From: Rhodothermales bacterium
GTDB taxonomy: Bacteria; Bacteroidota; Rhodothermia; Rhodothermales; UBA10348
Length of the DNA: 44,662 bases
Direction of reading: 5' to 3'
NCBI GenBank assembly: GCA_024711125.1
Contig: JANJTM010000067.1
Coordinates: forward strand, 1 to 44,662
Shown here: positions 137-19,978 of the stretch, piece after piece
How the letters are laid out: the number at the start of each line of letters is the position of its first letter
Position numbering within the stretch: the stretch's first letter is position 1
Notes under the pieces: generated by a model
The model's input: the letters and a program-made list of their open reading frames with translations, nothing else
Databases searched by the model: none
Told to the model about the DNA's origin: nothing
Translations under genes and position numbers: made by a program

Positions 137-1735
137 GTGTCTGATCCCTCACCGATCGACGCTGCCCGTTGGCTTGCCCTCGCGTCGGATCCGATCCATG
201 CCCGTGACGTCCGGGGCCGCGTCACGTTTGCCAATCCGGCGGCAGCCTCGCGCTTCGGATGGCCCGAGTGCAGCGTCGATACGCCGTACGACCCGGGCGA
301 CGGTCGCGATATCGCGTCGGCCATGGAAGCGTGCGAAGCCGTCGGGTTCTGGCGCGGAGACCTCGTCCGCGTGGACGCGCAGGGCAATCGCCTGGTCCTC
401 GAGAGTCACTGGAACCCGGTGCGCGCCGGAGACGGCCGCATCGAGCGCTATTTCGTGCTCGAGGCCGACATGACCGAGGTCCGGGCGACGCAGGGTGAAG
501 CGCTGCGCGCGCAGCGCATGGAGTCGATCGGAACGCTCGCCGGCGGCGTGGCGCACCAGATCAACAACGTGCTCGGGCCGATACTCATCGGCGCCGAGAT
601 GATCCGGCGGCGCGTGGACGATCCCTGGGTGCAGAAAAAGCTGGCGTCGATCGAGGAGGCGGCACGCGCCGGGGCCGATATCGTGAAGCAGGTACTCGAT
701 TTCGCCCGCGGCGTGGAGGGCGAGATGATCGTGCTTCAGGTTCGGCACGTGCTGAAGGAGGTCGCGAGTTTCGCCGAGCGCACGTTCTCGCGTTCCATCA
801 CCATCGAGACCGACCTGCCCACCACCCTGCCCCCCGTCGTCGGAGACGCCGCCCTGCTTCGCCAGGTCCTGCTGAACCTGCTGGTGAATGCCCGCGACGC
901 CATGCCCGACGGCGGACGCCTGCGCATCGCCGCATCCGAGGTGACCGTGTCCCCTGACGCCGCCCGTTCGCTGGGCACGGACGCACGGTCGGGGCGGTTC
1001 GTTCGCCTGGACGTCCAGGACTCCGGAACCGGCATTCCGCCCGAAGTGATGGCGCGCATGTTCGAGCCGTTCTTCTCCACGAAGACGCGGGGCCAGGGCA
1101 CGGGTCTCGGACTCTCGACCGTGATCACGATCGTTCGCGGCCACGGCGGTTTCCTGCACATCGATTCGGAGGTGGGCAGGGGAACGACCATGTCGATCTA
1201 CCTGCCGGTCCACGCGGCCGAGAACGAGCCCGCCGCGCCGACGCCTGACACCGGGGGGGCTTCCGAATCCCTCGGCCGGGGCATGACCGTCCTGATCGTG
1301 GACGACGAGCCCCTGATGCTCGAGATGAACTGCGACATGCTCGAGAGCTTCGGATTCAAGGTCTTCGGCGCAGCCAACGGACAGGAAGGGCTCGACGCAT
1401 TCCTGGCACGGCCCGCATTCTTCGACATCGTGGTGACCGACATCAACATGCCCGTGATGGACGGCGCGACCATGATCCGCCGAATGCGGGCGGTGCGCGA
1501 GGATCTGCCCGTGATCGCCGTTTCGGGACTCACCGAACACGTTCACCTGCTCGAAGGCAAGGGACTCGACGGTGTCGAAATCCTCGCCAAGCCGTACTCG
1601 TCGGCCGAACTGTTGGATGTCGTCTGCAATCTCCTGCCACGGGCCGCCCCCGGCTCGTCCTCGGCGCCGCTTTCGTCGGGCGACGTGCTCAGCGACACCG
1701 GCTTCGACGCGCTCTTCAAGGGGGACGACTGGTAG
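137..1735 (+). CDS. PAS-containing hybrid histidine kinase with C-terminal receiver domain
   Basis: Sensor kinase of the two-component type, probably soluble because no membrane segment is visible. Domain order: a PAS-like sensor, then a HisKA dimerisation helix with the H-box GGVAHQINNVLGP (His codon at 554). The HATPase_c domain shows an N-box (LLNLLVNARDAM), a DSGTGIP G1 box and a GQGTGLGLS G2 box. The C-terminal receiver domain has VTDINMPVMDG with its phospho-acceptor Asp codon at 1439. The same frame is open from GTG 20 and even to the window edge, but the first 39 residues there are Arg-rich and domain-free. I therefore prefer GTG 137, just before the PAS domain; this start is uncertain. 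First gene of a four-gene operon, 17 bases before the Ser/Thr kinase gene. The Asn-rich H-box is typical of PAS-HisKA-REC kinases. The signal sensed is unknown. Confidence 0.88.
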   Translation: MSDPSPIDAARWLALASDPIHARDVRGRVTFANPAAASRFGWPECSVDTPYDPGDGRDIASAMEACEAVGFWRGDLVRVDAQGNRLVLESHWNPVRAGDGRIERYFVLEADMTEVRATQGEALRAQRMESIGTLAGGVAHQINNVLGPILIGAEMIRRRVDDPWVQKKLASIEEAARAGADIVKQVLDFARGVEGEMIVLQVRHVLKEVASFAERTFSRSITIETDLPTTLPPVVGDAALLRQVLLNLLVNARDAMPDGGRLRIAASEVTVSPDAARSLGTDARSGRFVRLDVQDSGTGIPPEVMARMFEPFFSTKTRGQGTGLGLSTVITIVRGHGGFLHIDSEVGRGTTMSIYLPVHAAENEPAAPTPDTGGASESLGRGMTVLIVDDEPLMLEMNCDMLESFGFKVFGAANGQEGLDAFLARPAFFDIVVTDINMPVMDGATMIRRMRAVREDLPVIAVSGLTEHVHLLEGKGLDGVEILAKPYSSAELLDVVCNLLPRAAPGSSSAPLSSGDVLSDTGFDALFKGDDW

Positions 1736-1752
1736 CCGGGGAATGGACCGAC

Positions 1753-4164
1753 ATGGCGCAGGGCTCGACCGTTCCGCATGCACCCGGCGACGTCATCGGG
1801 GCTCGCTACGAGGTGATCAGGGTCCTCGGCCGGGGCGGATTCGGGGTCGTCTACCAGGTCCGCGCCCGGCATGACGGCCTGGAGTACGCGCTGAAGACCT
1901 TTCTCAGGGGCGGGGCCGACCCGAAGGCGGTCGCCCGGTTTCGCCAGGAAGCCCAGGTGTGGATCGCGCTGGGCCGCCATCCCAACCTCGTCCAGGCCCA
2001 TTTCGTGGACGAGATCGAGGGGCGCCTGTACGTGGGCATGGAACTGGTCCGGCCGGGTCCTTCGGGGCTCAATGCGTTGGACGGGTACTTCGAGAAGTCC
2101 CCGCCGGACCTGCGCCAGGCGCTCGTCTGGGCGATCCAGCTATGCCACGGCATGGAGTACGCACTGTCCCGCGGCATCCGCAGCCACCGCGACCTGAAGC
2201 CCGCCAACGTGATGATTTCGCCCGGCGGCGACGTGAAGATCAGCGATTTCGGCCTGGCGGCCCTTCCCGGCGACTCGGGTCAGTACGGGGTCGACGTGAC
2301 CGAGGCGGCCGCCCGGGGCGGTGGATTCCATGGGCAGACGGTGCGCGGCATGGGCTTCGGAACGCCCACCCACATGCCTCCCGAACAGTTCGAGGATGCC
2401 GGTTCGGCCGACGAGCGCACGGATATCTACGCCACCGGCGTGATCCTCTTCCAGGCCGCCACGGGCACGCTGCCGGTTTCGGTCCCGGCGCAGCGGGGCG
2501 ATTCGCTCGAAGCCCGGTTCCGCTTCTGGAAGGCCATGGAGGAGGCTCACCGCCGGTTCGAACTCCGACGCATCGACCATCCGCTGGAGCCCGTGCTGCG
2601 CCGGTGTCTCGTTGCCGACCCGAGCGGGCGCTACCCGACCTTCTCGGCCCTTCGCGGCGATCTGGAGGCCCTCCTGGCGCGCACCTCCGGAGACCGGGTG
2701 CCCGCGCCCGTGCCGATCAGGACGGGTACCATCGAGTACATCAACCGCGGCATCAGCCTCGAACGCATCGGTCGCCACGCCGATGCCCTCGCCGCTTTCG
2801 ACCTGGCGCTGGCCGAGGACTCCTCGTCGGCGGCCGCCTGGAACGGCCGCGGCATCTGCCTGTCACATCTCGGTCGCATGGAGGAGGCGCTCGACGCTTT
2901 CGCGCGCGTCGTCGAGCTCGAACCCGGCCACGGTCGGGCCCACGCCAATCGCGGCAACTGTCTCCAGGCGCTCGGAAGGGAATCCGAGGCGCTCGAAGCG
3001 TACGACCGGGCGCTCGAACTGGACGAGGGGGTGGCCTCGACGTGGTCCAACCGCGGCAACCTGCTCTTCCGCATGGGAGACCGGCGCGGAGCGGTGGAAA
3101 GCTACGACCGGGCGCTCGCGCTCGAGCCGTCCCGCAGGGGCACCCTGTCGAATCGTGGCCGCGTACTGGCCTCGGGGGGAGATTTCGCGCGCGCCCTGCT
3201 TTCGTTCGAGGAAGCGCTGCGCAGTGACGAACGGTTCCTCCCGGCCCTGCGGGGAAAGGCCGCCTGCAGCGTGCATCTCGGCAATTACCGCACGGCGCTC
3301 GCCCTCTATGAACGGCTCGAGGCCGAGGGACCGCCGGCGCCCGAAGACTGGTTGGCGCGCGGAATGGCCTGCCTTCGCCTCGAGCGGTACGTCGAGACGG
3401 CACGGGCACTCGGTCGTGCGCTCGAACTGACCGAATCGAGGCCCAGGGCCCTGCTGGGCATGGCCATCCTCCATTTTCGCATGCGGCGGTTCGGCGAAGC
3501 GCTCGTCGTCGCCCGGGAGGCGATCGAGCAGGGGGAGGATTCGAGAGCGGCCAGGCGGCTGCTCGCCCTGGTCCTGCATGCCGACGGCCGGTATGCCGAC
3601 GCGGTCGATCTCGGGCGCGGATTGCACGACGCCGACGAGGGCGATTCGGTGGTCGCGTGCAACCTGGTGTGCTCCCTGCTGCGACTCGGGGACGCGGAGG
3701 AGGCGGTTCGCATCGCCGACCGGGCGGCGTGGGCCCTGCCCGAAGGGGACCCGCGCGAGGATGCGGCCGCGCTCGGCTACGATCGCGCCTTCGCGCTGTC
3801 GCTCGTCGGACGCGTCGAGGAGGCCGAGGCCGGGCTGGAGCGGGTCGTGCGGCTCGATCCCCATTGGGACGATGCCTGGTTTTCTCTCGGCGGCCTCCGG
3901 TACGAACGGGGGCGAACCCGTGCCGCGTTGGAGGCCTGCGAGACGGCCGCGCGCCTCGAACGGGACCACGCGGCCTGGTGGAAGCGGAGCACCGCGTGGA
4001 CGCCCGAAATGCCCCGCCGCCTCCCGGACGGCCTGTTGCCGGTCGATGCCGCCGGCACCCTGCGCCGCCTCGAGGAGCGGTTCGATCCGTCGCGGGGCGA
4101 TCGGCTCCTGAGGCCGCCCTGTCTTCTCGAGCCCGGCTTCCTCCCGAACCTGTTCCTGGACTGA
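1753..4164 (+). CDS. Serine/threonine protein kinase with long TPR array
   Basis: An 803-residue Hanks-type kinase fused to tetratricopeptide repeats. The kinase domain (about 10-310) has the Gly loop GRGGFGVVY, the ATP-binding Lys48 (YALK), the catalytic loop HRDLKPANVM with Asp147, and DFG at 165-167. A GTPTHMPPEQF segment stands where the activation/P+1 loop is expected. From about residue 326 to 770 come roughly eleven TPR units, the first ones classical (repeated NRG...A..YDRALELD patterns), the later ones more diverged. No transmembrane helix is visible, so it should be cytoplasmic and probably uses the TPRs to hold partners or substrates. It sits 17 bases after the histidine kinase and 3 bases before the Clp ATPase gene, so co-translation is likely. 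The kinase fold is certain; the substrates are not known, although the neighbouring ATPase is an obvious candidate by inference. Confidence 0.92.
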   Translation: MAQGSTVPHAPGDVIGARYEVIRVLGRGGFGVVYQVRARHDGLEYALKTFLRGGADPKAVARFRQEAQVWIALGRHPNLVQAHFVDEIEGRLYVGMELVRPGPSGLNALDGYFEKSPPDLRQALVWAIQLCHGMEYALSRGIRSHRDLKPANVMISPGGDVKISDFGLAALPGDSGQYGVDVTEAAARGGGFHGQTVRGMGFGTPTHMPPEQFEDAGSADERTDIYATGVILFQAATGTLPVSVPAQRGDSLEARFRFWKAMEEAHRRFELRRIDHPLEPVLRRCLVADPSGRYPTFSALRGDLEALLARTSGDRVPAPVPIRTGTIEYINRGISLERIGRHADALAAFDLALAEDSSSAAAWNGRGICLSHLGRMEEALDAFARVVELEPGHGRAHANRGNCLQALGRESEALEAYDRALELDEGVASTWSNRGNLLFRMGDRRGAVESYDRALALEPSRRGTLSNRGRVLASGGDFARALLSFEEALRSDERFLPALRGKAACSVHLGNYRTALALYERLEAEGPPAPEDWLARGMACLRLERYVETARALGRALELTESRPRALLGMAILHFRMRRFGEALVVAREAIEQGEDSRAARRLLALVLHADGRYADAVDLGRGLHDADEGDSVVACNLVCSLLRLGDAEEAVRIADRAAWALPEGDPREDAAALGYDRAFALSLVGRVEEAEAGLERVVRLDPHWDDAWFSLGGLRYERGRTRAALEACETAARLERDHAAWWKRSTAWTPEMPRRLPDGLLPVDAAGTLRRLEERFDPSRGDRLLRPPCLLEPGFLPNLFLD

Positions 4165-4167
4165 ACC

Positions 4168-6531
4168 ATGGCCCAACTGACCGCCGCCGCCCGTCATGCC
4201 TGGAAACAGGCCGCCTCCGAGGCCGCTGGATCGGGATCGCCGGAAATCGAACCGGTGCACCTCCTCCTCGCCCTGTTATCCCTCGAGACGGCCCCTCCGG
4301 GCACGGGAGCCATGCTCGAGCAGGAACTGGTGGTCAAGCCCTTTCTCGACGCGCGTGTGGACCGGTCGGAGCTCAGGCTTGCGCTGAGGCGCTCCATGCC
4401 CCGTGCCGAACGCGTTTACGAAGGCGCCACGGTGCACCGATCCCCGGCGAGCCGCGCCATCTTCGGTCGGGCCGAGACGCTTTCCGACGGCGACCCGGTC
4501 TCGGCTCCGCACCTGCTGGCGGCATGTCTCGAACGACCCGACCGGGTATTGGAAAAGGCGCTTTCGCGCATTTCGACCTCGGCCGATCGCATCCGGGGCT
4601 GGATCCGCTACCCTTCCCATTTGACCGAATCCTCGGCCGGAACGGGGGCTGCCGAGAGCCAGGCGGGGCCGCTCGCACCATCGCGTCCGAGATCCCCCGA
4701 TCCGGCGAAACCCGCTCCGGGGACCGCCCGCGGGGCGCGTGCCCGCAAGGACTCGGACCAGGAACCGGAAGAGCGCGTGCTCGAACGCTTCGGGAAGGAC
4801 CTGACCCAGCTCGCCCGGGACGGGAAGATTGCCCCCATCATCGGCCGGCGCGCCGAGATCCTGCAGACCATCCAGGCGCTCGCGCGCAAGAAGAAGAACA
4901 ACCCCGTCCTCGTCGGCGATGCCGGTGTCGGAAAGACCGCCGTCGTGGAGGCCCTTGCGCTGCGCGCCGTCGAGGGCAAGGACCCGCAGGTCCTCGCCGG
5001 ACGGCGCATCGTCGAGCTGGACATGGGCTCCCTGCTGTCCGGAACCTCGCTCCGCGGTCAGTTCGAGGAGCGGATGCGCAGGCTGATCGACGAGGCATCG
5101 GCCGACGAGAACCTCATCCTCTTCATCGACGAGATCCATACGATCATGGGTGCCGGCGGTGGCGCCCAGGACGCGGCCCAGCTCCTAAAGCCCGCCCTGT
5201 CGCGCGGCGCGATAAAGCTCATCGGGGCGACCACGATCGACGAATACCGGCAGTACATCGAGAAGGACCCCGCGATGGACCGCCGATTCGAGAAGATCCT
5301 GATCGACGAGCCGTCGAGGGACGAAGCCGTCGAGATGCTCATGGGGCTTCGGGCCTCCCTGGCCTCCCACCACCGGGCCGAATACGGCGATGACTCCGTG
5401 GCCGCGGCCGTAGACCTGTCGATGCGTATCGACGTGGACCACCGGCTTCCCGACAAGGCGATCGACCTCCTGGACCGCGCCGGCGCGCGGTCTTCGGTGA
5501 CGGCGCTCAGCCTGGATCCGTTCGAACACCGGTCCGGGACAGGCACTCGCGCGCCGATCGGGGCGCTCGACGTCGCGCACGTCCTGGCCGAGAAGATGGG
5601 CATGCCGGTCGAGATCGTCGCCGGACACCTCGACCCGGCCGGAGCGCGGCGGCTGCTTGGCCTCGAGGATTTCCTGCGCGGGACCATCAAGGGCCAGGAT
5701 CGCGCGGTGGAGGCGCTGTCGGAGCGCATGATCCTGGCGCACGCGTCCGTGATGGAGCGACGCGGGCCGCTGGCCACCCTGCTGTTCCTCGGGCCCAGCG
5801 GGGTCGGAAAAACCGAGATGGCGAAGCAGCTCGCGCTCTTCCTCTTCGGTTCCGACAAGAACCTCGTACGCTTCGACATGTCGGAATTCAAGGAGGAGCA
5901 CTCGATATCCAAACTCATCGGCTCGCCACCGGGATACGTGGGCAGCGACCAGGACGGCCAGTTGACCGGCCAGATCCGGCGCAAACCATACGCCATCGTG
6001 CTGCTGGACGAGGTCGAAAAGGCCCATCCGCGCATTTATGACGTCTTCCTGCAGGTTTTTGATGAGGGACGCATCACCGACTCGAAGGGTCGCCTCGCCG
6101 ACGCGCGCAACTGCATCTTCCTGCTGACGACCAACGTGCGGCCCGAGGCCGACGCCCGGGACCGGGCGGCGATCGACGAGGCGCACAAGACCTGGTTCCG
6201 ACCCGAACTCATCAATCGTATCGACGAAATCGTGCCGTTCGATCCCCTGTCGCCGGAGAGCGTGGGCCTGATCCTCGACGGGCACCTCGCGAAGCTCGTG
6301 CGTCACCTGGCCGAGCGGCACGGGGTCGAACTCGAGGTGGATCCGGCCGCCCGGGACCTCCTGGCGCAGGCAGGGTACCACCCGGAGTACGGCGCGCGCG
6401 AACTGCGTCGTACGCTCGAACGCATGGTCCAGGTGCCCCTCAGCCGCCTGGTGCTGTCCGGAGACCTGGCACGGTTCGCCGGCTGGCGCCTCGAAGCGGG
6501 CGGCGAGGGCATTCGATTCGTGCACGCGTGA
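4168..6531 (+). CDS. Clp/Hsp100-family AAA+ ATPase, two nucleotide-binding domains, no M-domain
   Basis: A 787-residue protein unfoldase/disaggregase-type ATPase. A Clp N-terminal domain (about 1-145) is followed by a low-complexity Pro/Ala/Arg linker (about 152-200). The first AAA domain has Walker A GDAGVGKT with Lys256 and Walker B LFIDEIHT with Asp321/Glu322. The second has Walker A GPSGVGKT with Lys548, a SPPGYVG pore-loop motif, and Walker B LLDEVEK with Asp614/Glu615. The C-terminal D2-small domain ends with the usual YGARELRR signature. No coiled-coil M-domain as in ClpB lies between the two ATPase domains. I also see no IGF/IGL-type ClpP-docking loop in the short stretch after LLTTN. 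It is thus closer to ClpA in layout but may act without ClpP. Located 3 bases after the kinase-TPR gene and 7 bases before the receiver/ATPase gene. Confidence 0.9.
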
Positions 6532-6538
6532 GGAAGCC

Positions 6539-7627
6539 ATGAGCCGGATTCTCGTGATCGACGACGACCCCATCTACCGCGAGATGATCGTGGACGCCCT
6601 CCAGGCCGAGGGGTACGAAACGCTCCACGCCGAGAACGGCGAGGTCGGCATCGAGCGTGCCCGGGCCTACGTGCCCGACCTGGTGATCAGCGACGTGGTC
6701 ATGGAGAAGGCCGACGGGTACCAGGTCCTGGCTACGCTGCGGGCCGAGCCGGCTACGGCCGCGATCCCGTTCATCATGATCACCGGCTGGTCGAGCAAGG
6801 GCGGACAACGCCAGGGCATGGCGATGGGCGCCGACGATTACCTGGCCAAGCCTTTCAACGCGACGGAACTTCTCCAGTCGGTTTCGGCCCAACTGCGAAA
6901 GAAGGAACGCTCGATCGTGCGTGCCGCGACCCGCTCGACGGCGGCCGACTCGGCATTGACGACGATCCTGCCCGCCGAGATCTCCAAGCCGCTCCAGACG
7001 ATCCAGGGTTTCGCCGCCATCCTGCGACGGGACTCGACCTCGCTCGGCAAGGGCGAGATCGGCGAGATCGCCCGGCACATCCAGACTTCGGCGCTGCGCA
7101 TCCGCCGTTCGGTGGACAACTACATCGTGTTTGCCGAACTGGGAATGCTGGAGGAGGATGCCGATCGTGCGGCGGCGCTGCGCAGGGACCGGATCGACGG
7201 GCTGCAGTCCCTCATCGAGGTGCGCTCCCGGAATCTCGCGCGCGCCGTGGAGCGCGAGCCGGACCTGAAGTTCGATTGCCGTGACGGATCGGCGGCCATT
7301 TCCGAAACCTACTTCGGCCGCGTTCTCGACGAACTGGTGGACAACGCCCTGAAATTCTCTCCTCCCGGCAGCCCGGTCGAGATCACCGCCGCGTTCAAGG
7401 CCGACCGTTTCGGATTCGCGGTGCGCGACCACGGCCTGGGCATGACCCCCGAATCCGTAGCCTCGGTCGATGCCTTCGTGCAGTTCTCGCGCGCCGAGTA
7501 CGGCCAGGCAGGCATGGGCCTGGGACTCGCGATCGCCCGGCGCATCGTGAACCTGCACGGAGGGGTGCTGACCCTCAAGAGCCGGGTCGGCGAAGGCACC
7601 CGCGTTCTGGTCGAACTGCCGCGGTGA
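6539..7627 (+). CDS. Receiver domain fused to histidine-kinase-like ATPase lacking the H-box histidine
   Basis: A 362-residue signalling protein. The N-terminal receiver domain (about 1-120) has the acidic triad DDD at 8-10, phospho-acceptor Asp52 (VISDVV) and Lys in YLAKPFN. It is followed by a HisKA-like helix pair and a HATPase_c domain with N-box (ELVDNALKFS), DHGLGM and GMGLGLAIARR boxes. In the place of the usual HELRTPL phospho-acceptor motif it reads PAEISKPL, with Ala146 where His belongs. The ATP-binding half looks intact, so the protein may bind ATP and dimerise without autophosphorylating, or act as a phosphorylation-gated scaffold or Spo0B/anti-sigma-like kinase; this is inference. 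A GAGG stretch just before the ATG could serve as a ribosome-binding site. Last gene of the operon, convergent with the next gene. Confidence 0.88.
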   Translation: MSRILVIDDDPIYREMIVDALQAEGYETLHAENGEVGIERARAYVPDLVISDVVMEKADGYQVLATLRAEPATAAIPFIMITGWSSKGGQRQGMAMGADDYLAKPFNATELLQSVSAQLRKKERSIVRAATRSTAADSALTTILPAEISKPLQTIQGFAAILRRDSTSLGKGEIGEIARHIQTSALRIRRSVDNYIVFAELGMLEEDADRAAALRRDRIDGLQSLIEVRSRNLARAVEREPDLKFDCRDGSAAISETYFGRVLDELVDNALKFSPPGSPVEITAAFKADRFGFAVRDHGLGMTPESVASVDAFVQFSRAEYGQAGMGLGLAIARRIVNLHGGVLTLKSRVGEGTRVLVELPR

Positions 7628-7628
7628 A

Positions 7629-7651
7629 CCGGGCGCGGGGAATCAGCCCGG
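7629..7651. terminator. Candidate bidirectional hairpin between convergent genes
   Basis: Arms CCGGGC (7629-7634) and GCCCGG (7646-7651) with an 11-base loop lie exactly between the two convergent stop codons. There is no T-run on either side, so it is only a weak terminator candidate. Confidence 0.3.
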
Positions 7652-8578
7652 GTCCACGCTCCGGTACGCGTCGATCAGGGCCTGTTCGCCCTCCCGCCCG
7701 GGCTTCGAGTTGCCGTGCTCCATGCCGAGCACGCCCGTGAAGCCCTTCGCCTTGATATGGCGGAAGACGTTGAGGTAGTTGATCTCGCCGGTCGTGGGTT
7801 CGCGCCGGCCCGGGTTGTCGCCGATCTGGAAGTAGGCGATCTCGTCCCAGGCCGCGTCGATGTTCGGGATGAGGTTGCCCTCGGTGATCTGCTGGTGGTA
7901 CAGGTCGTCGAGGATCTTGACCGATGGGCTGTCGACGGCCTTGCAGATGGCGTAGGCCTGCGGAACCCCGCTCAGGAAGAGCCCCGGGTGGTCCCTGCGG
8001 TTCAGCGGCTCGAGCACGATCACGAGGCCGTGCGGCTCGAGAAGGTCGGCGGCGCGCTTTAGCGCGTCGACCACGTTCGCGGTCTGGTAGCCCATGTCCA
8101 GGCGCAGATCCACGTATCCGGGCACGACGGTCATCCACGTCGCGTTCACCCGGCGGGCGACGTCGACGCTCTCGGCGATTTCCTTCAGGAAGGCCTCGCG
8201 CGCGTCGGCCTTGCCGGTCGTCAGCGACGGCTCGCTCCAGTAGATCGTATGCGCCACGAAGACCCCCATGCGCAGCCCGCGGGCCGACATCGCCGCCGCC
8301 ATGCGCTCCTGCTCGGCGACCGGCCGCCCCTTCATGCCGTTGTCCTCGAACGCGGAAAAACCACGATCGGCCATGAAATGAAGCTGGTCCACCGGGTCGT
8401 TGCCGGCATGCTGAGCGAACATGCCGGTATGGGGCGCGAACCGCATGCTGAACGGCTCGTCGGAACGGACGAGACGCCCGGAGCCGACCGCCGGCCGGAC
8501 CGAGGCGAAACCGGCGATGCCGGACACGGCGGCCGCCGCGGCGACCGAGGAGCGCGAGAGGAAGGAGCGTCGGTTCAT
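7643..8578 (-). CDS. Tat-exported hydroxypyruvate-isomerase-like TIM-barrel protein
   Basis: A 311-residue sugar isomerase/epimerase of the AP-endonuclease-2 fold (Hyi branch). The start MNRRSFLSRSSVAAAAAVSG is a twin-arginine signal, so the enzyme should act in the periplasm. Metal-site style motifs of the family are seen in order: LEPLNRRDHPG, then KILDDLYHQQITEGN, then GMEHGNS near the end. Known relatives interconvert hydroxypyruvate and tartronate semialdehyde or act on keto-sugars; some PF01261 proteins cleave 3-keto-glycosides. The neighbouring Tat-exported Gfo/Idh oxidoreductase makes a sugar-oxidation role likely, by inference. It is the last gene of the minus-strand run, 27 bases after apbE. 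The exact substrate cannot be read from the sequence. Confidence 0.82.
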   Translation of the reverse strand: MNRRSFLSRSSVAAAAAVSGIAGFASVRPAVGSGRLVRSDEPFSMRFAPHTGMFAQHAGNDPVDQLHFMADRGFSAFEDNGMKGRPVAEQERMAAAMSARGLRMGVFVAHTIYWSEPSLTTGKADAREAFLKEIAESVDVARRVNATWMTVVPGYVDLRLDMGYQTANVVDALKRAADLLEPHGLVIVLEPLNRRDHPGLFLSGVPQAYAICKAVDSPSVKILDDLYHQQITEGNLIPNIDAAWDEIAYFQIGDNPGRREPTTGEINYLNVFRHIKAKGFTGVLGMEHGNSKPGREGEQALIDAYRSVDPG

Positions 8579-12120: not shown

Positions 12121-15100
12121 TCAGGGCCGCAGAAAATAGGTTTCGCCGAGCACGTCGTGCAGCTTCCCGATCATCTCGTCGGCATCGGCTTCCGAGATGA
12201 CCAGCGGGGGCTTGACCTTGATGACGTCGTGGTCGGGCCCGTCGGTGGAGAGCAGCACGCCCCGCTCCCGCATCCGGTTGACCAGGCGCGAGGCCTGGGC
12301 CGACGCCGGCTCGCGGGTTTCGCGGTCGAGCACGAGTTCGAATCCGGAGAAGAGCCCCATTCCCCGCACGTCGCCGACGAGCGGCGAAGCGTCCACCAGG
12401 GAGCGGAACCCGGCCATGAGCCGCGTGCCCACCGCGAGGGCGCGCTCCTGGAGTCCTTCGTCCCGGATCACGCGCAGCACCTCGAGCCCCACCGCGCATG
12501 ACGCCGCGTTCCCGCCGTACGTGTTGAAGTATTCCATGCCGTTCGCGAACGCGTCGGCGACGGCGCGTGTCGTGACGACCGCTCCGAGCGGAAACCCGTT
12601 GCCTATCGGCTTGCCCATCGTGACGATGTCGGGCACGGCCCCGAGCGCCTCGAAGGCCCAGAAATGCGTTCCGACCCGGCCGAACCCCGTCTGGACTTCG
12701 TCGGCGACGTAGAGCGCGCCTCCGGCCCGGGCGTGGGCAGCCGCGGCGGGAAGCCAGCCGGGAGGCGGTACGACCTGCCCCCCGCACGACAGGATCGCCT
12801 CGGTCACGAAGGCCGCGGCACCGTACCCCGCGTCGGCCAGGTCCATGGCGGCGTCCCTGACGTCGGCCGCATACCGTTCCCCGAGGTCGGGCGCCCCACC
12901 GCGCAGTTCGCCCCGGTACGGGTCGGGCATGCGCACGATGCGTACGTGGTCGGGCCGTCCGCGACCGCCCGGCCCGTCGAACTTGTACGGGCTGACGGCG
13001 ATCAGGCTCTCGAGGTGGCCGTGGTAGGCGCCGTCGACCGCCACGAATCCCGACCGCCCGGTGGCGGCCCGCGCCATCCGCAGCGCGAGATCGTTGGCCT
13101 CGGATCCGGAGTTGACGAAGAAGCAGACGTCGAGTCCGTCGGGCAGCGTCGCGGCCAGTTCGTCGGCGTACTCGAGGATCGTGCCGTGCAGGTAGCGGGT
13201 GTTCGTGTTCAGCACGGCCAGCTGCCGGCGGGCGGCGGCGACGACCCGGGGATGCCCGTGGCCCACGTGGGCGACGTTGTTGACGCCGTCGAGGTAGCGG
13301 CGGCCGTCGGCGTCGTAGAGCCACGCCCCCCTGCCGCGCACGATCTGCAGCGGTTGACGGTAGGAAACGCTGAGGTTGGGCCCCAGCCGTTCGCGGCGGC
13401 GTTCGAGCAGTTCCGCGTCGGGCCGACGGGCATAGGTCGAATCGACGCCCAGGCCGAGTACCAGGTCGGGGTCGGGACAGAGCGAAGCCCAGGCGGCGGC
13501 CTCGGAGGGCAGCGCGACGCCCGGAAAGTCCCCGTCCGACCGGTCCAGAGAGTCGGCGAGCACCTGGAAATGCAGGTGCGGTGGCCAGCCGCCGTTCTCG
13601 CGGTCCTCGCCGAGCGCGGCGAAGGCCACGCCGGCCGCGACGCGATCGCCGGGTTTCAGCGTGTGCAGCACCCCTTGCGCGAGGTGTCCGTACAGCGTGC
13701 GGAATTCGGGCCGATCGGCCTCGGCCTCGTGGCGCAGGACCACCGTCGGCCCGTAGTCCCGGGGAGCCGCGTTGTCGGCCACCGTCTCGACGACGGCGTC
13801 GAAAGGAGCCCGCACCGGGGTACCCGGCGGGGCGAACAGGTCGATTCCGAGGTGTACGGTCCGGCCCCGTTCGGGGCCTTCGGCGTCGGTGAGGAACCGG
13901 GGCGTGGAATACACGCCCCGGGGCTCGAGCCATCGCCCCACGCCGAGCGTCGCTCCCGACGCCGCGAGCGCCGCGTCGAACGCGTGCTGCCATGCCGCCG
14001 CGTCGGCCTCCGGATCGAGCTCGAACTGCGCCGAACCGACCGACAGGTCGAATACCATGGGGATCGCGCGATCGTACGGTGCGCCCAACACCGGGGCGGC
14101 GGAATGCCCGTTGCGCTCGAGCCAGGTCCGTACGCGGCGCGCCGGTTCCGGAGCGCCCATGCCGCACGCGGCCCGGATACGAGCGGCCGCGAAACGCGCA
14201 GGCACCGCGTCGAGCAGGCCGAGCAGTTCCCAGGCCGGGCGCTCGCTGACGACGAGGTAGGGATCGTCGGGCTCGGCCGCCGCGCGCACGGCCGACAGCG
14301 CGACGCTGACGGCCAGGCGCAACCCGACGAGCGGAACGAGGGCGTCTGCCTCGGTCTCCGAGAGCGGCGCCGCGTCGTGGAACCCGCGCGCGACCGCCGC
14401 GATACCGCCCAAGGGGTCCCGAAGGCCCATGACCGCATACGCCGCGGCGATGGCCGGATCGCCTGCGCGCCACGACCTTCCCATGTCCCCGAAATCCAGC
14501 AGCGCGAGGCGGGGCGACTCGCCGACCAGCCGGACGAGCACGTTGAAGTCGTTGGCGTCCCCGTGCACGGCCTGACGGGGCAGACCGGCGGTATCCAGGG
14601 CAAGGACCCGGTCCACCGCCCGGCGCAGCAGGTCCCGTCGCCCGGGCCCCTCCACGGCCGCCAGGTTCCGGTCGACGACCTCGGGACCGCAATGCAGCGT
14701 CCAGTGGAACGAGCGATCGAGCGACGGGTGGTCGAAATCCGCAAGGGCTGCAGAGACCTCGCCCATCCCCCGCCCAAGCGCTTCCAGAAGGGCCTCGTCG
14801 TGCGGCGCGTACCGGGCGAGCGGAATTCCCTCGAACCACGGCGCGAGTCCGATGCGCACCGGTCTCCCGTCCGCGTCGACGTCCTCGGCCAGTGCGTGAC
14901 CCGACCCGGTCCTGACCGCGGCCGGAAGATCGAACGTTCGGCAGCGCGCGGCCACCCGGTCCACGGCCTCCTGCCGCACGTCGAGCGGCACGTCCCCCTC
15001 GGCGTTCCGCGCGACCTTCAGCACGTACCGACGGCCGCCGGGCGTCACCAGGCGGAAGTTCCGATCGACGTCCCCCTCCACCTCGGTCGCCGCACCTTCG

Positions 15101-15177
15101 AGCCCCCAGTGCCGCCGTGCGAGATCGGAGGCATCGTCTGCCGTCACGCGGGGACGCTGGCGCGGCGCTGAACTCAC
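12121..15177 (-). CDS. Three-domain fusion: APH-type phosphotransferase, M23 peptidase-like, class-III aminotransferase
   Basis: A 1018-residue fusion. Residues about 1-360 form an aminoglycoside-phosphotransferase/choline-kinase fold with the catalytic loop VHGDANDFNVLV and LALLDFGDMG. Residues about 425-560 form a LytM/M23 domain with His442 and Asp446 (HLGID) and His534/His536 (PPHLHFQ), so the zinc ligands appear intact. Residues about 590-1018 are a class-III PLP aminotransferase of the AGXT2-like/phospho-lyase group: SGSEANDLALRMAR, VADEVQTGFGR and PLP-Lys856 in MGKPIGNG. No signal peptide is visible, so the peptidase-like domain would be cytoplasmic. AGXT2-like relatives are ethanolamine-phosphate or phosphohydroxylysine phospho-lyases, so a kinase plus lyase acting on the same amino-alcohol is a reasonable inference. 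It lies 16 bases after the TPR gene and 26 bases before the SUMF1-like gene. Confidence 0.9.
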   Translation of the reverse strand: MSSAPRQRPRVTADDASDLARRHWGLEGAATEVEGDVDRNFRLVTPGGRRYVLKVARNAEGDVPLDVRQEAVDRVAARCRTFDLPAAVRTGSGHALAEDVDADGRPVRIGLAPWFEGIPLARYAPHDEALLEALGRGMGEVSAALADFDHPSLDRSFHWTLHCGPEVVDRNLAAVEGPGRRDLLRRAVDRVLALDTAGLPRQAVHGDANDFNVLVRLVGESPRLALLDFGDMGRSWRAGDPAIAAAYAVMGLRDPLGGIAAVARGFHDAAPLSETEADALVPLVGLRLAVSVALSAVRAAAEPDDPYLVVSERPAWELLGLLDAVPARFAAARIRAACGMGAPEPARRVRTWLERNGHSAAPVLGAPYDRAIPMVFDLSVGSAQFELDPEADAAAWQHAFDAALAASGATLGVGRWLEPRGVYSTPRFLTDAEGPERGRTVHLGIDLFAPPGTPVRAPFDAVVETVADNAAPRDYGPTVVLRHEAEADRPEFRTLYGHLAQGVLHTLKPGDRVAAGVAFAALGEDRENGGWPPHLHFQVLADSLDRSDGDFPGVALPSEAAAWASLCPDPDLVLGLGVDSTYARRPDAELLERRRERLGPNLSVSYRQPLQIVRGRGAWLYDADGRRYLDGVNNVAHVGHGHPRVVAAARRQLAVLNTNTRYLHGTILEYADELAATLPDGLDVCFFVNSGSEANDLALRMARAATGRSGFVAVDGAYHGHLESLIAVSPYKFDGPGGRGRPDHVRIVRMPDPYRGELRGGAPDLGERYAADVRDAAMDLADAGYGAAAFVTEAILSCGGQVVPPPGWLPAAAAHARAGGALYVADEVQTGFGRVGTHFWAFEALGAVPDIVTMGKPIGNGFPLGAVVTTRAVADAFANGMEYFNTYGGNAASCAVGLEVLRVIRDEGLQERALAVGTRLMAGFRSLVDASPLVGDVRGMGLFSGFELVLDRETREPASAQASRLVNRMRERGVLLSTDGPDHDVIKVKPPLVISEADADEMIGKLHDVLGETYFLRP

Positions 15178-16258: not shown

Positions 16259-19200
16259 ATGATCATGGAAACGCGCAATCGTCTGCACCGCCTCGTCCTG
16301 GCGACCCTCGTGGCCGTCTCGACCGCCCTGCCGGTGCTCGCATCGGGCCCCGATCCCTATTCCGGTCCCCGGCCGCGGCTTGACCTGCCGACCTCCTTCG
16401 GCGTGGGTCCGGTACTCGACCTTGCCTTCGGCTCGTCGTCCTCCGGCTGCGCCGAATGCGAAGGCGGAGTGGTCGAGCTGACCGTTCGGTACAACGGCGA
16501 AACCGCCGCGTCCATCGTCGTCAAGGACGACGTGAAGACATACTTCTCCGGTACCGTGCAACCCTTCGAGACCATCACGGTGAAGGGGACACGAAGCGAC
16601 GGCAAGTTCGAGAAGAACGACCTGCAGTTCCTCGTGGGCGGGACGCTGAACACGAAGATCCACGTTTCGTGCTCGCAGCCCATCAATCCGGGCCTCGTGT
16701 TCGGCGCGTTCACCGTGGTCGACGCGATCTCGCGTACGGGCGGACGGGTCTGCCCGACCACCAACTCGGGCTGCGCCGAGTGCGAGGGCGGCGTGACCGA
16801 ACTCACGCTCCGGTATGACGGCACGACCGCCGCCACGATCGTGGTCCGCGACGATCGCAAGACCTATTTCTCGGGCGTCGTGCAGCCCGGTGCCGACTTC
16901 ACGTTCAGCGGGACCCGCAGCGACGGCAAGTTCGAGAAGAACGACCTCGACGTGCTCGTCAACGGGCGGCAGAACACCCGCATCCACGTATCGTGCTCGC
17001 AACCCATCAACCCGGGCCTGACGTTCGGCGCCTTCACCGTCGTGGACGCCATTTCGCGCACCGGGGGACGGGTCTGCCCCGTCACCACGTCAAACTGTGC
17101 GCAGTGCAAGGGAGGCGTGACGAGCCTCACGTTGCGCTACGACGGCAGTCTTCCTGCGCTCGTCGTCGTCAAGGACAGCAACAAGACCTACTACTCGGGG
17201 TCCGTGCAGCCGGGAGCCGAGTTCACCTTCACCGGAACCCGCAGCGACGGCAAGTTCGAGAAGAACGACCTCGACGTGCTCGTGAACGGCGTACAGAACA
17301 CCGAAATCCACGTATCCTGCTCGCAACCGATCAACCCGGGCCTGTCGTTCGGGTCCTTCACCGTGACCGCGGCGGTCTCGAAGGACGGCGGCAACGTGTG
17401 CCCGCTGGAGACCAACGGCTGCTTCGAGTGCAAGGACGGGATACGGTCGATGACCTTCCGCTACGAGGGGACGACCGCGACCCGGATCACCTTCTCGGTC
17501 GGAACCACCAAGTACTTCGATCGCACCGTGCAGCCCGGTGAGACGTTCACCGTCGATAACGGCGGCGCGAAGTTCGCCAAGAACGACGTGACGGTAAAGA
17601 TCGGCTCGGCGACGCACACCGTGCACGTCTCGTGCTCCGACCCCGACGTGAAGCCCGGATACGTCGTGGGCGGCGTACTCGTGATGACCGCGGGTACCAG
17701 CGGCGACGGCCCGATGTGCGGCGCCCCGACGTGCGACATCGACCTCGAGCTGCAGAAGGAGTTCGTTCCGGAGGAGTCGAATCTCGGGCAGGGCCTGGTG
17801 ATGTACCGGCTTACCCTGACCAACACGGCCGAGGCCAAGACGCTCGCCACGCTCATCACGGTCAAGGACCTCGTACCCGGCGGGGGCACGGTGGAGTCGG
17901 CCGTGGCGGCCTGGGGTACGACCTTCAACAAGGCGACCGCGACCTGGAACGTACCGATCCTCGGCGTCGGAGAAACGGTGAGCGTGCTCATCGGCGTTCG
18001 CTACGCAGGCACCCTGCCTGCGCAGCCGAACTGCGCCGAAGTCCGGACGGCCGTAGGGGACGATGTCGACTCGACCCCGGGCAACTGGGCCGGATCGCCG
18101 ATCGAGGACGACGAAGCCTGCGCGCCGGTCGCAGAGCCTCCGAAGATCGACGTGTCGCTCCGGAAGAGCGTCTCCAATCCTTACCCGGCAAGGAATGACG
18201 TCGTGACCTTCACGCTCGTGGTACGGAACGAGGGTCCGGCCGACGCGACGAACGTGCGGGTCAAGGACTACATGCCGGACGGCGTCCTCTACGTGGACGG
18301 CTCCGCCTCGACCGAACCCGGAATCACGTTCGACAAGACCACCATGACCTGGCTCATCGCCAAGCTGGAGCCCGGAGACATGCCGGCCCTCACCTTCCAG
18401 GCCAAAGTCACGGTGATCGGCGAGCGCATCAACTGCGCCGAGGTTCGGACCCACGACCAGGAAGACATCGACTCGGTACCCGGCGTGGTCAGCGGGACGA
18501 CCCTGAACTGCGCGACGGCGCCGTCCGAGGACCTCGAGGACGACGAGACCTTCGTCAAGATCTGGATCAGCGAGGACCCGCAGGTCAACGACGCCATCTG
18601 CTACGTCGTGGCCGACAACGACTCGTCGGGCGGAGAGACCGAGGACTTCCTCTCCAAGCTCACGCCGGACGGCCAGGTCGAGATGCCGATCGGCAAGACG
18701 GGCACCGTGGCGGTCGAGGGCATCGCGTTCAACCCGTGGAACGGCGTGCTCTTCGCGGCCAACGGCCCATGCCTCGGAACGCTCGACCTGAACACCGCCC
18801 AGTACACCCAGATCGGTTGCGCCGGTTCGGGCATGGGATACGACCAGTACGGCAACTACACGGAACAGGCGTTCGACGACATGGACGGCCTGACCTTCGA
18901 TCCGCACACCGGCGAGCTGTACGCAAACCTGCGCAAGACCGAGTTCGGAATCGATGACATCATCATCAAGCTGAACCCGCTGACGGGCAAGGCGGTCAAG
19001 AACGCGTTCGGCCCCGGCATCGACTACATCTCGATCAAGGGCGTCGGCGACCTCACCGACCTCGACGACATCGCGATCGACCCCGTGGACGGCACGATGT
19101 ACGGGATCAACAACGACGAGTCGGAGAACGCCCGCCTGGTGAAGATCGACAAGATGACCGGCCAGATGAGCGACGTGAAGAAGCTGCCCGTCGACAACGT

Positions 19201-19978
19201 GGAGGGCCTCGGTTTCTTCGGAGACGGTACCCTCTACGGAACCGGCGCCGAGGGCTTCGAAAACATCCTCATCATCAACAAGCAGACGCTCGCCATCACG
19301 ATCGTCTCGTCGCTCGGCGCGCGCGGAAACTTCGACTACGAGTCGATCGACTGCCTCGTCACCAATCCGAGCAACACCCGCGTGACGCTGTTCGACGACG
19401 CCGACGGCAACGGCGTGCTCGGCGGCAGCGAAGTGGTACTGCAGGGCGTGGACGTCGAGGTGTACCGCGATTCCGACGGCGACGGGATGGTTTCGGACGA
19501 CGACCGCCTGCTCACGACGACGACCAGCGGTCCGGGAGGTCTCGTCGACTTCTCGACGCCGGCGAACGGAGCGTTCGTCTTCAAGGTCTCCGGCTCGCTC
19601 CTCGGGGAGTCGGAACTGGGCGTGAACTTCGAAGGGTTCGGAGAGCGGTTCCAGGGAACGCTGGCCGTCTCCGCAGCCGCTTCGACGTCCAACCAGGGCG
19701 CAGAGACCGTTCCGACCTCGTACCGCCTCGTGGGCAACTACCCGAATCCGTTCAACCCGGTCACCTCGATCACCTTCGAGGCTCCGGCCACGGGCCGCGT
19801 CCGGCTCTCGGTGTTCGACCTGCTCGGCCGCGAGGTCAGCCTGCTCGTCGACGGCGAGGTGCACGCGGGACGGCACACCGTGACCTTCGACGCCTCGAGC
19901 CTGCCCAGCGGCACTTACCTCTATCGCCTGCAGACGCAGGCCGGTGCCTGGACCCGGAGCCTGACCCTGCTCAAGTAG
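16259..19978 (+). CDS. Large secreted repeat protein with DUF11 domains and C-terminal T9SS-type sorting domain
   Basis: 1239 residues from ATG 16259 (ATG 16265 is an alternative). A signal peptide (about 1-30, LATLVAVSTALPVLASG) is followed by four Cys-rich repeats starting at residues 63, 171, 279 and 387. These are spaced exactly 108 residues apart and share CxxC...GG, GTRSDGKFEKND, HVSCSQPINPG and GGRVCP. They resemble the DUF7467 kind of repeat. Two DUF11-like beta-sandwich domains follow (about 490-622 and 628-765), then a propeller-like region (about 765-1035) with repeated LDDIAIDPVDGTMYGI-type strands. A segment with Asp-rich DADGNG and DSDGDG loops suggests calcium binding. The C-terminal 80 residues contain YPNPFNPVTSITFE (Tyr1161) and SGTYLYRLQT, the sorting signal of type IX-secreted proteins. 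It is probably exported to the cell surface as an adhesive or structural protein; its ligand is unknown. Confidence 0.9.
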   Translation: MIMETRNRLHRLVLATLVAVSTALPVLASGPDPYSGPRPRLDLPTSFGVGPVLDLAFGSSSSGCAECEGGVVELTVRYNGETAASIVVKDDVKTYFSGTVQPFETITVKGTRSDGKFEKNDLQFLVGGTLNTKIHVSCSQPINPGLVFGAFTVVDAISRTGGRVCPTTNSGCAECEGGVTELTLRYDGTTAATIVVRDDRKTYFSGVVQPGADFTFSGTRSDGKFEKNDLDVLVNGRQNTRIHVSCSQPINPGLTFGAFTVVDAISRTGGRVCPVTTSNCAQCKGGVTSLTLRYDGSLPALVVVKDSNKTYYSGSVQPGAEFTFTGTRSDGKFEKNDLDVLVNGVQNTEIHVSCSQPINPGLSFGSFTVTAAVSKDGGNVCPLETNGCFECKDGIRSMTFRYEGTTATRITFSVGTTKYFDRTVQPGETFTVDNGGAKFAKNDVTVKIGSATHTVHVSCSDPDVKPGYVVGGVLVMTAGTSGDGPMCGAPTCDIDLELQKEFVPEESNLGQGLVMYRLTLTNTAEAKTLATLITVKDLVPGGGTVESAVAAWGTTFNKATATWNVPILGVGETVSVLIGVRYAGTLPAQPNCAEVRTAVGDDVDSTPGNWAGSPIEDDEACAPVAEPPKIDVSLRKSVSNPYPARNDVVTFTLVVRNEGPADATNVRVKDYMPDGVLYVDGSASTEPGITFDKTTMTWLIAKLEPGDMPALTFQAKVTVIGERINCAEVRTHDQEDIDSVPGVVSGTTLNCATAPSEDLEDDETFVKIWISEDPQVNDAICYVVADNDSSGGETEDFLSKLTPDGQVEMPIGKTGTVAVEGIAFNPWNGVLFAANGPCLGTLDLNTAQYTQIGCAGSGMGYDQYGNYTEQAFDDMDGLTFDPHTGELYANLRKTEFGIDDIIIKLNPLTGKAVKNAFGPGIDYISIKGVGDLTDLDDIAIDPVDGTMYGINNDESENARLVKIDKMTGQMSDVKKLPVDNVEGLGFFGDGTLYGTGAEGFENILIINKQTLAITIVSSLGARGNFDYESIDCLVTNPSNTRVTLFDDADGNGVLGGSEVVLQGVDVEVYRDSDGDGMVSDDDRLLTTTTSGPGGLVDFSTPANGAFVFKVSGSLLGESELGVNFEGFGERFQGTLAVSAAASTSNQGAETVPTSYRLVGNYPNPFNPVTSITFEAPATGRVRLSVFDLLGREVSLLVDGEVHAGRHTVTFDASSLPSGTYLYRLQTQAGAWTRSLTLLK
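16445..17716 (+). repeat. Four tandem repeats of 324 bp within the secreted-protein gene
   Basis: Repeat units begin at 16445, 16769, 17093 and 17417, exactly 324 bases (108 codons) apart. Units 2 and 3 share about 50 identical bases around 16915 and 17239. Unit 4 is more diverged and somewhat shorter. Each unit encodes four cysteines: a CxxC pair, one in HVSCS and one in the closing VCP or similar. Confidence 0.85.

Follow-up and report, generated by a model that had tools for sequence, protein, structure and literature searches.

Results

Organization of the locus

The window analyzed here, 44,662 nucleotides in length, is the complete contig JANJTM010000067.1 of a Rhodothermales bacterium. 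Four genes lie together near its 5' end, all on the + strand. Gene 1 (137–1735) encodes a soluble hybrid histidine kinase (HK) of 532 amino acids with the organization PAS-DHp-CA-REC; its start codon is the GTG at 137, with an alternative GTG further upstream at 20. Gene 2 (1753–4164) encodes a Hanks-type Ser/Thr kinase with a C-terminal TPR array (803 amino acids), and gene 3 (4168–6531) a double-ring Clp ATPase (787 amino acids) that belongs to a distinct clade. The product of gene 4 (6539–7627; 362 amino acids) is composed of a REC domain, a signalling helix/DHp-like hairpin and a CA domain. Genes were identified with a codon-usage caller, or by homology in the case of locus L107. The ORF coordinates confirm that the intergenic gaps are exactly 17, 3 and 7 bases, as read in the first-pass annotation, and Pfam analysis bears out the four domain architectures given there (PAS-HisKA(weak)-HATPase-REC; Pkinase-TPR; Clp_N(weak)-AAA-AAA_2-D2small; REC-HATPase). 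Assignment was further based on motif checks for genes 1 and 2, on intact Walker A/B pairs and clade support of 100/100 for gene 3, and on a structural model (pLDDT 83) with LvrB as the best fold match for gene 4.

Only 136 bases of the contig precede the HK start, so the upstream flank is out of view in this genome. On the 3' side, the next gene (7643–8578) is on the opposite strand. Elsewhere in the window, 12121–15147 encodes a 1008-residue protein in which an APH phosphotransferase is fused to a peptidase M23 domain and a class-III aminotransferase, and 16259–19978 a secreted protein of 1239 residues that has a Por secretion tail and repeats of the DUF7467 and DUF11 types.

The hybrid histidine kinase and the pseudo-histidine kinase

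Pfam recognizes PAS, a weak HisKA, HATPase_c and Response_reg in the HK, and its top NCBIfam matches are CckA-type models, below their cut-off. The DHp His, the CA boxes and the REC Asp expected of a hybrid histidine kinase are intact, and the H-box GxAHxxNN and the receiver Asp motif are intact in all six orthologues. Alignment and a pattern search also revealed a conserved, cassette-specific short linear motif in the C-terminal tail LSDTGFDALFKGDDW (1688–1732, + strand). This tail comprises the last 15 residues, is conserved in 6/6 cassette HKs as [LV][ST]D..F..L..G.DW, and contains five residues that are invariant in all six (D520, F523, L526, G529 and W532). The pattern is absent from the remaining ORFs of the loci retrieved, and matches to HK paralogues end short of the tail. 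All six have Ser or Thr at residue 519 (window 1691–1693), a candidate site for the Ser/Thr kinase of the cassette.

Gene 4 matches REC and HATPase in Pfam, with no HisKA match. Its model consists of the REC domain, a continuous helix (residues 108–163), a second helix (171–206) and the CA domain, which is the REC-helix-DHp-CA architecture of LvrB; among solved structures, LvrB is nearest to the model, followed by DivL. By alignment, the position of the phosphoacceptor His is occupied by Ala146 (6974–6976, + strand). The residue found there in the four cassette copies is A, A, A and S, so none has His, and the label of pseudo-kinase given in the first reading of the sequence is thus justified by replacement of the phosphoacceptor with Ala (Ser in one genome). 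All aligned gene-4 paralogues retain the acceptor His (LPHE, FPHE, SHD, VHD, RHE, AHD and SHE). The cassette copies keep the Glu next to the acceptor site as well as the N, G1 and G2 ATP-binding boxes, and they cluster together with moderate support (91/96). From these sequence features, the most fitting name for gene 4 is Rec-controlled pseudo-histidine kinase.

The closest paralogues of the HK and of gene 4 adjoin each other in three genomes (G002, G010 and G015), and this adjacency supports a partnership between the two that is older than the cassette. Comparison of the cassette proteins by region indicates strong conservation of the HK DHp (76%), Clp D1 (75%), gene-4 REC (69%), Clp D2 (63%) and the kinase domain (57%), with divergence in the PAS domain (35%), the Clp N-domain (35%), the TPR (33 and 24%) and the DHp-like hairpin of gene 4 (32%). 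The HK DHp and the gene-4 REC are the usual partner surfaces, and this likely phosphotransfer pair is strongly conserved. Divergence of the input and recognition modules is as expected if signals or clients vary among hosts.

A distinct clade of Clp ATPase

Gene 3 has a Clp_N domain, two AAA+ modules with Walker A/B and a D2-small domain, which identify its product as a double-ring Clp/Hsp100 protein, and both Walker A/B pairs are intact in the cassette Clps. These Clps are monophyletic (support 100/100) and sister (95/92) to Clps from another class of the phylum. Within the D1 pore loop, Leu295 of the sequence GTSLRG (5050–5052, + strand, from alignment) occupies a position where Clp ATPases have Tyr or Phe; the residue is L or V in 5/5 cassette Clps, all other Clps compared have Y or F there, and D2 of the cassette Clps keeps GYVG. 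The M-domain is replaced by a short D1–D2 linker (5488–5559, + strand) of 25–32 residues in the five complete copies, as delimited by the bounds of our script, compared to 72 in the ClpC and 133 in the ClpB of the same organism. The ClpP-docking [IL]GF loop is absent by alignment from the D2 stretch where ClpA and ClpC have it (6136–6195, + strand) in all five complete cassette Clps; the organism's own ClpC and the ClpAs of the phylum have one. Judged from its sequence, the cassette Clp is apparently ClpP-independent. Only the N-domain, with its eight helices, was used from a structural model of the protein, because full-length quality was modest (pLDDT 69). The closest folds are those of ClpC, ClpB and ClpA.

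Several established families were considered and rejected for gene 3. A ClpB disaggregase would have a long coiled-coil M-domain, and the TIGR03346 score is 650 bits against a cut-off of 1232. A ClpA/ClpC protease subunit is opposed by the missing [IL]GF loop (5/5). ClpV/TssH scores 580 bits against a cut-off of 885, with no PF05943 in the six carrier genomes. As to ClpA with ClpS, the ClpAs of the phylum have a ClpP loop and a small upstream gene, which by eye we take to be ClpS; the cassette Clp has neither. ClpI of Actinomycetota, an additional Clp class with one subclass that lacks the ClpP motif, has an M-domain of ClpC length (PMC10149685), and the cassette Clp has none.

The Ser/Thr kinase and its pairing with Clp

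In gene 2, Pfam places the Pkinase domain at residues 19–296 and the TPR from about residue 327. The ALK, HRDLKPAN, DFG and PPE motifs are intact in 6/6 orthologues, and these include the Lys, HRD and DFG of Hanks-type kinases. A reduced pairing of a Ser/Thr kinase with Clp is present in another class of the phylum, where the Clps of the sister clade adjoin an FHA-Ser/Thr kinase in 5/5 genomes. These clusters resemble the cassette in that the kinase gene lies immediately upstream of the Clp gene, but they differ from it in having FHA rather than TPR, in keeping the D1 pore Tyr, and in lacking both HK and gene 4. The loci with the FHA-kinase followed by the sister Clp are L156:7213–11643, L157 and L144–L148 (five genomes); a 125-residue protein of no assigned family lies between the two in four of the five, and in G245 the locus is adjoined by a PP2C phosphatase and a WD40-kinase. 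A small tree with weak resolution does not place the FHA kinases as sisters to the TPR kinases, and on this basis we rejected a common origin of the kinase-Clp pair in both classes. The pairing may therefore be old, with replacement of the kinase, or may have arisen twice.

Distribution and gene order

Orthologues of the Clp were sought in 27 genomes of the family and then in all 114 genomes of the order in the collection. They were found in six genomes from five genera, all within the one family (G000, G002, G007, G017, G018 and G026). The hybrid kinase and then the kinase-TPR gene lie 5' of every Clp copy. Gene 4 directly follows Clp in G000, G002, G017 and G018. The contig of G026 breaks within Clp, and a gene-4 remnant is found on a second contig, followed by the same metallophosphatase and glycosyltransferase pair as in G017. 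Gene 4 is absent beside Clp in G007, a genome that is 78% complete. Taking what we read as the most plausible starts, spacings across the carriers range from about -17 to +30 bases. The cassette Clps share 51–69% identity with that of the window; RpoB identity to the RpoB of the window's genome is 83–84% in the other carriers where RpoB was found. Since order and spacing are kept in six genomes of five genera, the cassette represents more than a chance adjacency, and the four genes very probably constitute one unit. Adjacency in this genome alone, which the first-pass annotation had named as grounds for abandoning its reading, is thereby excluded.

The four-gene set was not found in the remaining genomes among the 114 of the order, and scanning 394 genomes of the phylum with a profile yielded no further cassette. 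Among 80 outside Clp loci of the genome collection, none had a kinase operon except two, which were the G018 and G007 contigs themselves. Clps on plasmids of Caballeronia, Streptomyces and Tsukamurella had no adjoining Ser/Thr kinase. Conservation in distant phyla, put forward earlier as a sign of a functional module, was not borne out within the reach of these searches, the set being found in a single family (6 of 27 genomes) in the 394-genome phylum scan. We found nothing on this gene combination in an open-access subset of the literature.

Gain and loss of the cassette

Within three genera, the cassette is present in 1/4, 2/7 and 1/3 of the species sampled. Its neighbors in G002 are, on one side, a gene for a secreted Ig-like protein and, on the other, a gene that by eye we take to encode a photolyase. 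In three congeners of G002 (G010, G015 and G019) these flanking genes are adjacent, about 340–820 bases apart, and the empty sites have no detectable trace of the four genes. Comparison of the occupied site with the empty sites therefore indicates that the block was gained or lost whole; the cassette is acquired or deleted as one unit, and insertion and deletion are both compatible with the data. No integrase or repeat was identified at the cassette.

Flanks differ among the carriers, and no flanking gene holds a consistent position apart from two partial exceptions; nothing is conserved on the 5' side in the relatives, and no fifth gene travels with the cassette in the carrier loci. One exception is a giant upstream kinase common to both carriers of one genus. 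It is a Cache-HAMP-PAS hybrid kinase divergent from the cassette (L105:15484–19902 and L107:5419–11338), and the gene after it encodes a REC-HATPase protein of the gene-4 family. The other, located further out in G002 and G026, is a related REC-kinase with a beta-lactamase-like gene. A second REC-kinase in G002 (L106:4907–5983) has an intact FPHE His and lies two genes away from the cassette; it may be a later arrival too, because its two neighbors are adjacent in the congener G015.

Discussion

Individual features of the cassette are found in known systems. The CckA-DivL/CpdR-ClpXP system of Caulobacter resembles the cassette in having a hybrid HK of the CckA type and a His-less pseudo-kinase, DivL, which is among the best folds for gene 4, and in gating an AAA+ machine by a phosphorelay. 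However, its components are not encoded in one operon, the relay needs ChpT and CpdR, and its output is ClpXP proteolysis. In the Esp system of Myxococcus (EspA/EspC with PktA5/PktB8), hybrid HKs and Ser/Thr kinases control the turnover of a regulator. The EspA/EspC models match the cassette HK below cut-off, and the Esp gene set, unlike the cassette, is not known to include a dedicated Clp. McsB and ClpC are encoded together in the ctsR operon of Firmicutes. McsB is a protein kinase that marks substrates for the Clp ATPase (PMC8370763), but it is an arginine kinase unrelated to the Hanks-type kinases, of which the cassette kinase is one. The ClpC of that system has the M-domain and the ClpP loop, which the cassette Clp lacks, and the system includes no two-component proteins.

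LvrA-LvrB of Leptospira, like the cassette, combines a hybrid HK with a REC-helix-DHp-CA protein. LvrB is a Rec-controlled histidine kinase that has its phosphoacceptor, His161, and passes phosphate to LvrC (PMC13269768), whereas gene 4 has Ala or Ser at that site; Lvr as described includes neither a kinase-TPR protein nor a Clp (PMC13269768), and the cassette has both. RssB of the RssB-ClpXP system resembles gene 4 in being a REC protein whose output domain is catalytically degenerate, and it serves as a Clp adaptor (PMC7226468), but its output domain is PP2C-like, its client is sigma-S, and ClpX is a single-ring ATPase.

We considered what such a set of genes could do. The four could be co-transcribed with separate functions, the HK and gene 4 as an Lvr-like relay and the Ser/Thr kinase and Clp as a quality-control pair that merely have a promoter in common. 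HK/gene-4-like pairs do occur without Clp elsewhere in these genomes, as do kinase-Clp pairs without HK in the other class, but the order is nested (HK and gene 4 outside, kinase and Clp inside) in every full carrier, the set moves as one block, and gene 4 lacks the residue that an independent relay would need. We consider this explanation unlikely. An anti-phage or other conflict cassette, with the kinase and ATPase as sensor and effector, would fit the sporadic occurrence within genera, the occupied and empty sites, and matches of the kinase domain to the PADLOC models PD-T4-6 and MAD6. These matches, however, cover the generic kinase domain only, no defence gene or integrase was recognized in the neighborhoods read, and the cassette has no toxic effector domain, making such a role distinctly unlikely. 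Chance adjacency in a single genome, to which the abundance of Ser/Thr and histidine kinases in these genomes might have contributed, is refuted by the order kept in five genera with differing flanks.

The nature of the Clp bears on two other explanations. That it still docks ClpP, the kinases selecting targets for a regulated protease as in McsB-ClpCP, could be argued from its closest folds and from a longer loop with GF motifs that is retained in the sister Clps; with the docking loop present in 0/5 complete cassette Clps and retained in the same organism's ClpC and in the phylum's ClpAs, we regard this as quite improbable. A ClpV-like role, in taking apart a contractile (type VI) secretion apparatus, would account for the high TssH model score and the lack of a ClpP loop. 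It is counter-indicated, and very improbable, given that the score is far under the cut-off and that the sheath gene VipB/TssC (PF05943) occurs in 0/6 carriers by a search that included a positive control.

The reading we prefer, to which we give an even chance of being right, is that the phosphorelay and the Ser/Thr kinase together gate a dedicated, ClpP-independent Clp remodeller, encoded by a self-contained and laterally variable cassette. The cytosolic PAS hybrid kinase would sense an internal signal, autophosphorylate, and phosphorylate the REC domain of gene 4. This would change the state of the signalling helix and so release the CA domain, with the mechanism described for REC phosphorylation in LvrB serving as our template (PMC13269768). 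Lacking the acceptor His, gene 4 would not donate phosphate but would work by contact, in the role of a conformational gate or adaptor. The kinase-TPR protein may bind and phosphorylate clients or partners, with the Ser/Thr of the HK tail as one possible target, and pass clients to the Clp ring, which would unfold or dismantle them mainly by its D2 ring without feeding ClpP. As no fifth gene travels along, the client would be either a host protein or a member of the set itself. Counting against this scheme, gene 4 is missing beside the other three genes in G007, the kinases next to the sister Clps are not the nearest relatives of the cassette kinases, so that kinase-Clp pairing may have two origins, loss of the ClpP loop is known from sequence alone, and the TPR and the Clp N-domain are poorly conserved and so may not bind a conserved cassette partner.

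A bolder version, which we hold to be unlikely, is that the Clp client is the signalling complex itself. The HK tail would then serve as a handle, with the kinase-TPR protein phosphorylating or masking the Ser/Thr of the tail, and the REC-controlled pseudo-kinase would time disassembly. If true, the cassette would represent a new class of transferable system, a signalling machine that can be reset without proteolysis.

The first-pass annotation proposed a sensory system that controls protein remodelling. What stands of this is that the genes form one unit, on the evidence of order, near-contiguity and joint gain or loss, and that they include a dedicated, apparently ClpP-independent remodeller; the cassette is strongly supported as a functional module. 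The direction of signalling, the adaptor roles and the hand-over of clients are steps that we infer.

The cassette adds a Clp subfamily marked by three coordinated losses. It brings the two major phosphorylation systems of bacteria together with a dedicated, apparently protease-free unfoldase, and all of them travel as one small block. Control of AAA+ proteins by phosphorylation is known in separate cases (CpdR, RssB and McsB). The combination found here suggests a system, so far undescribed, that would place a dedicated unfoldase under the control of phosphate signals, and the cassette offers a compact model for how such signals gate an unfolding machine.
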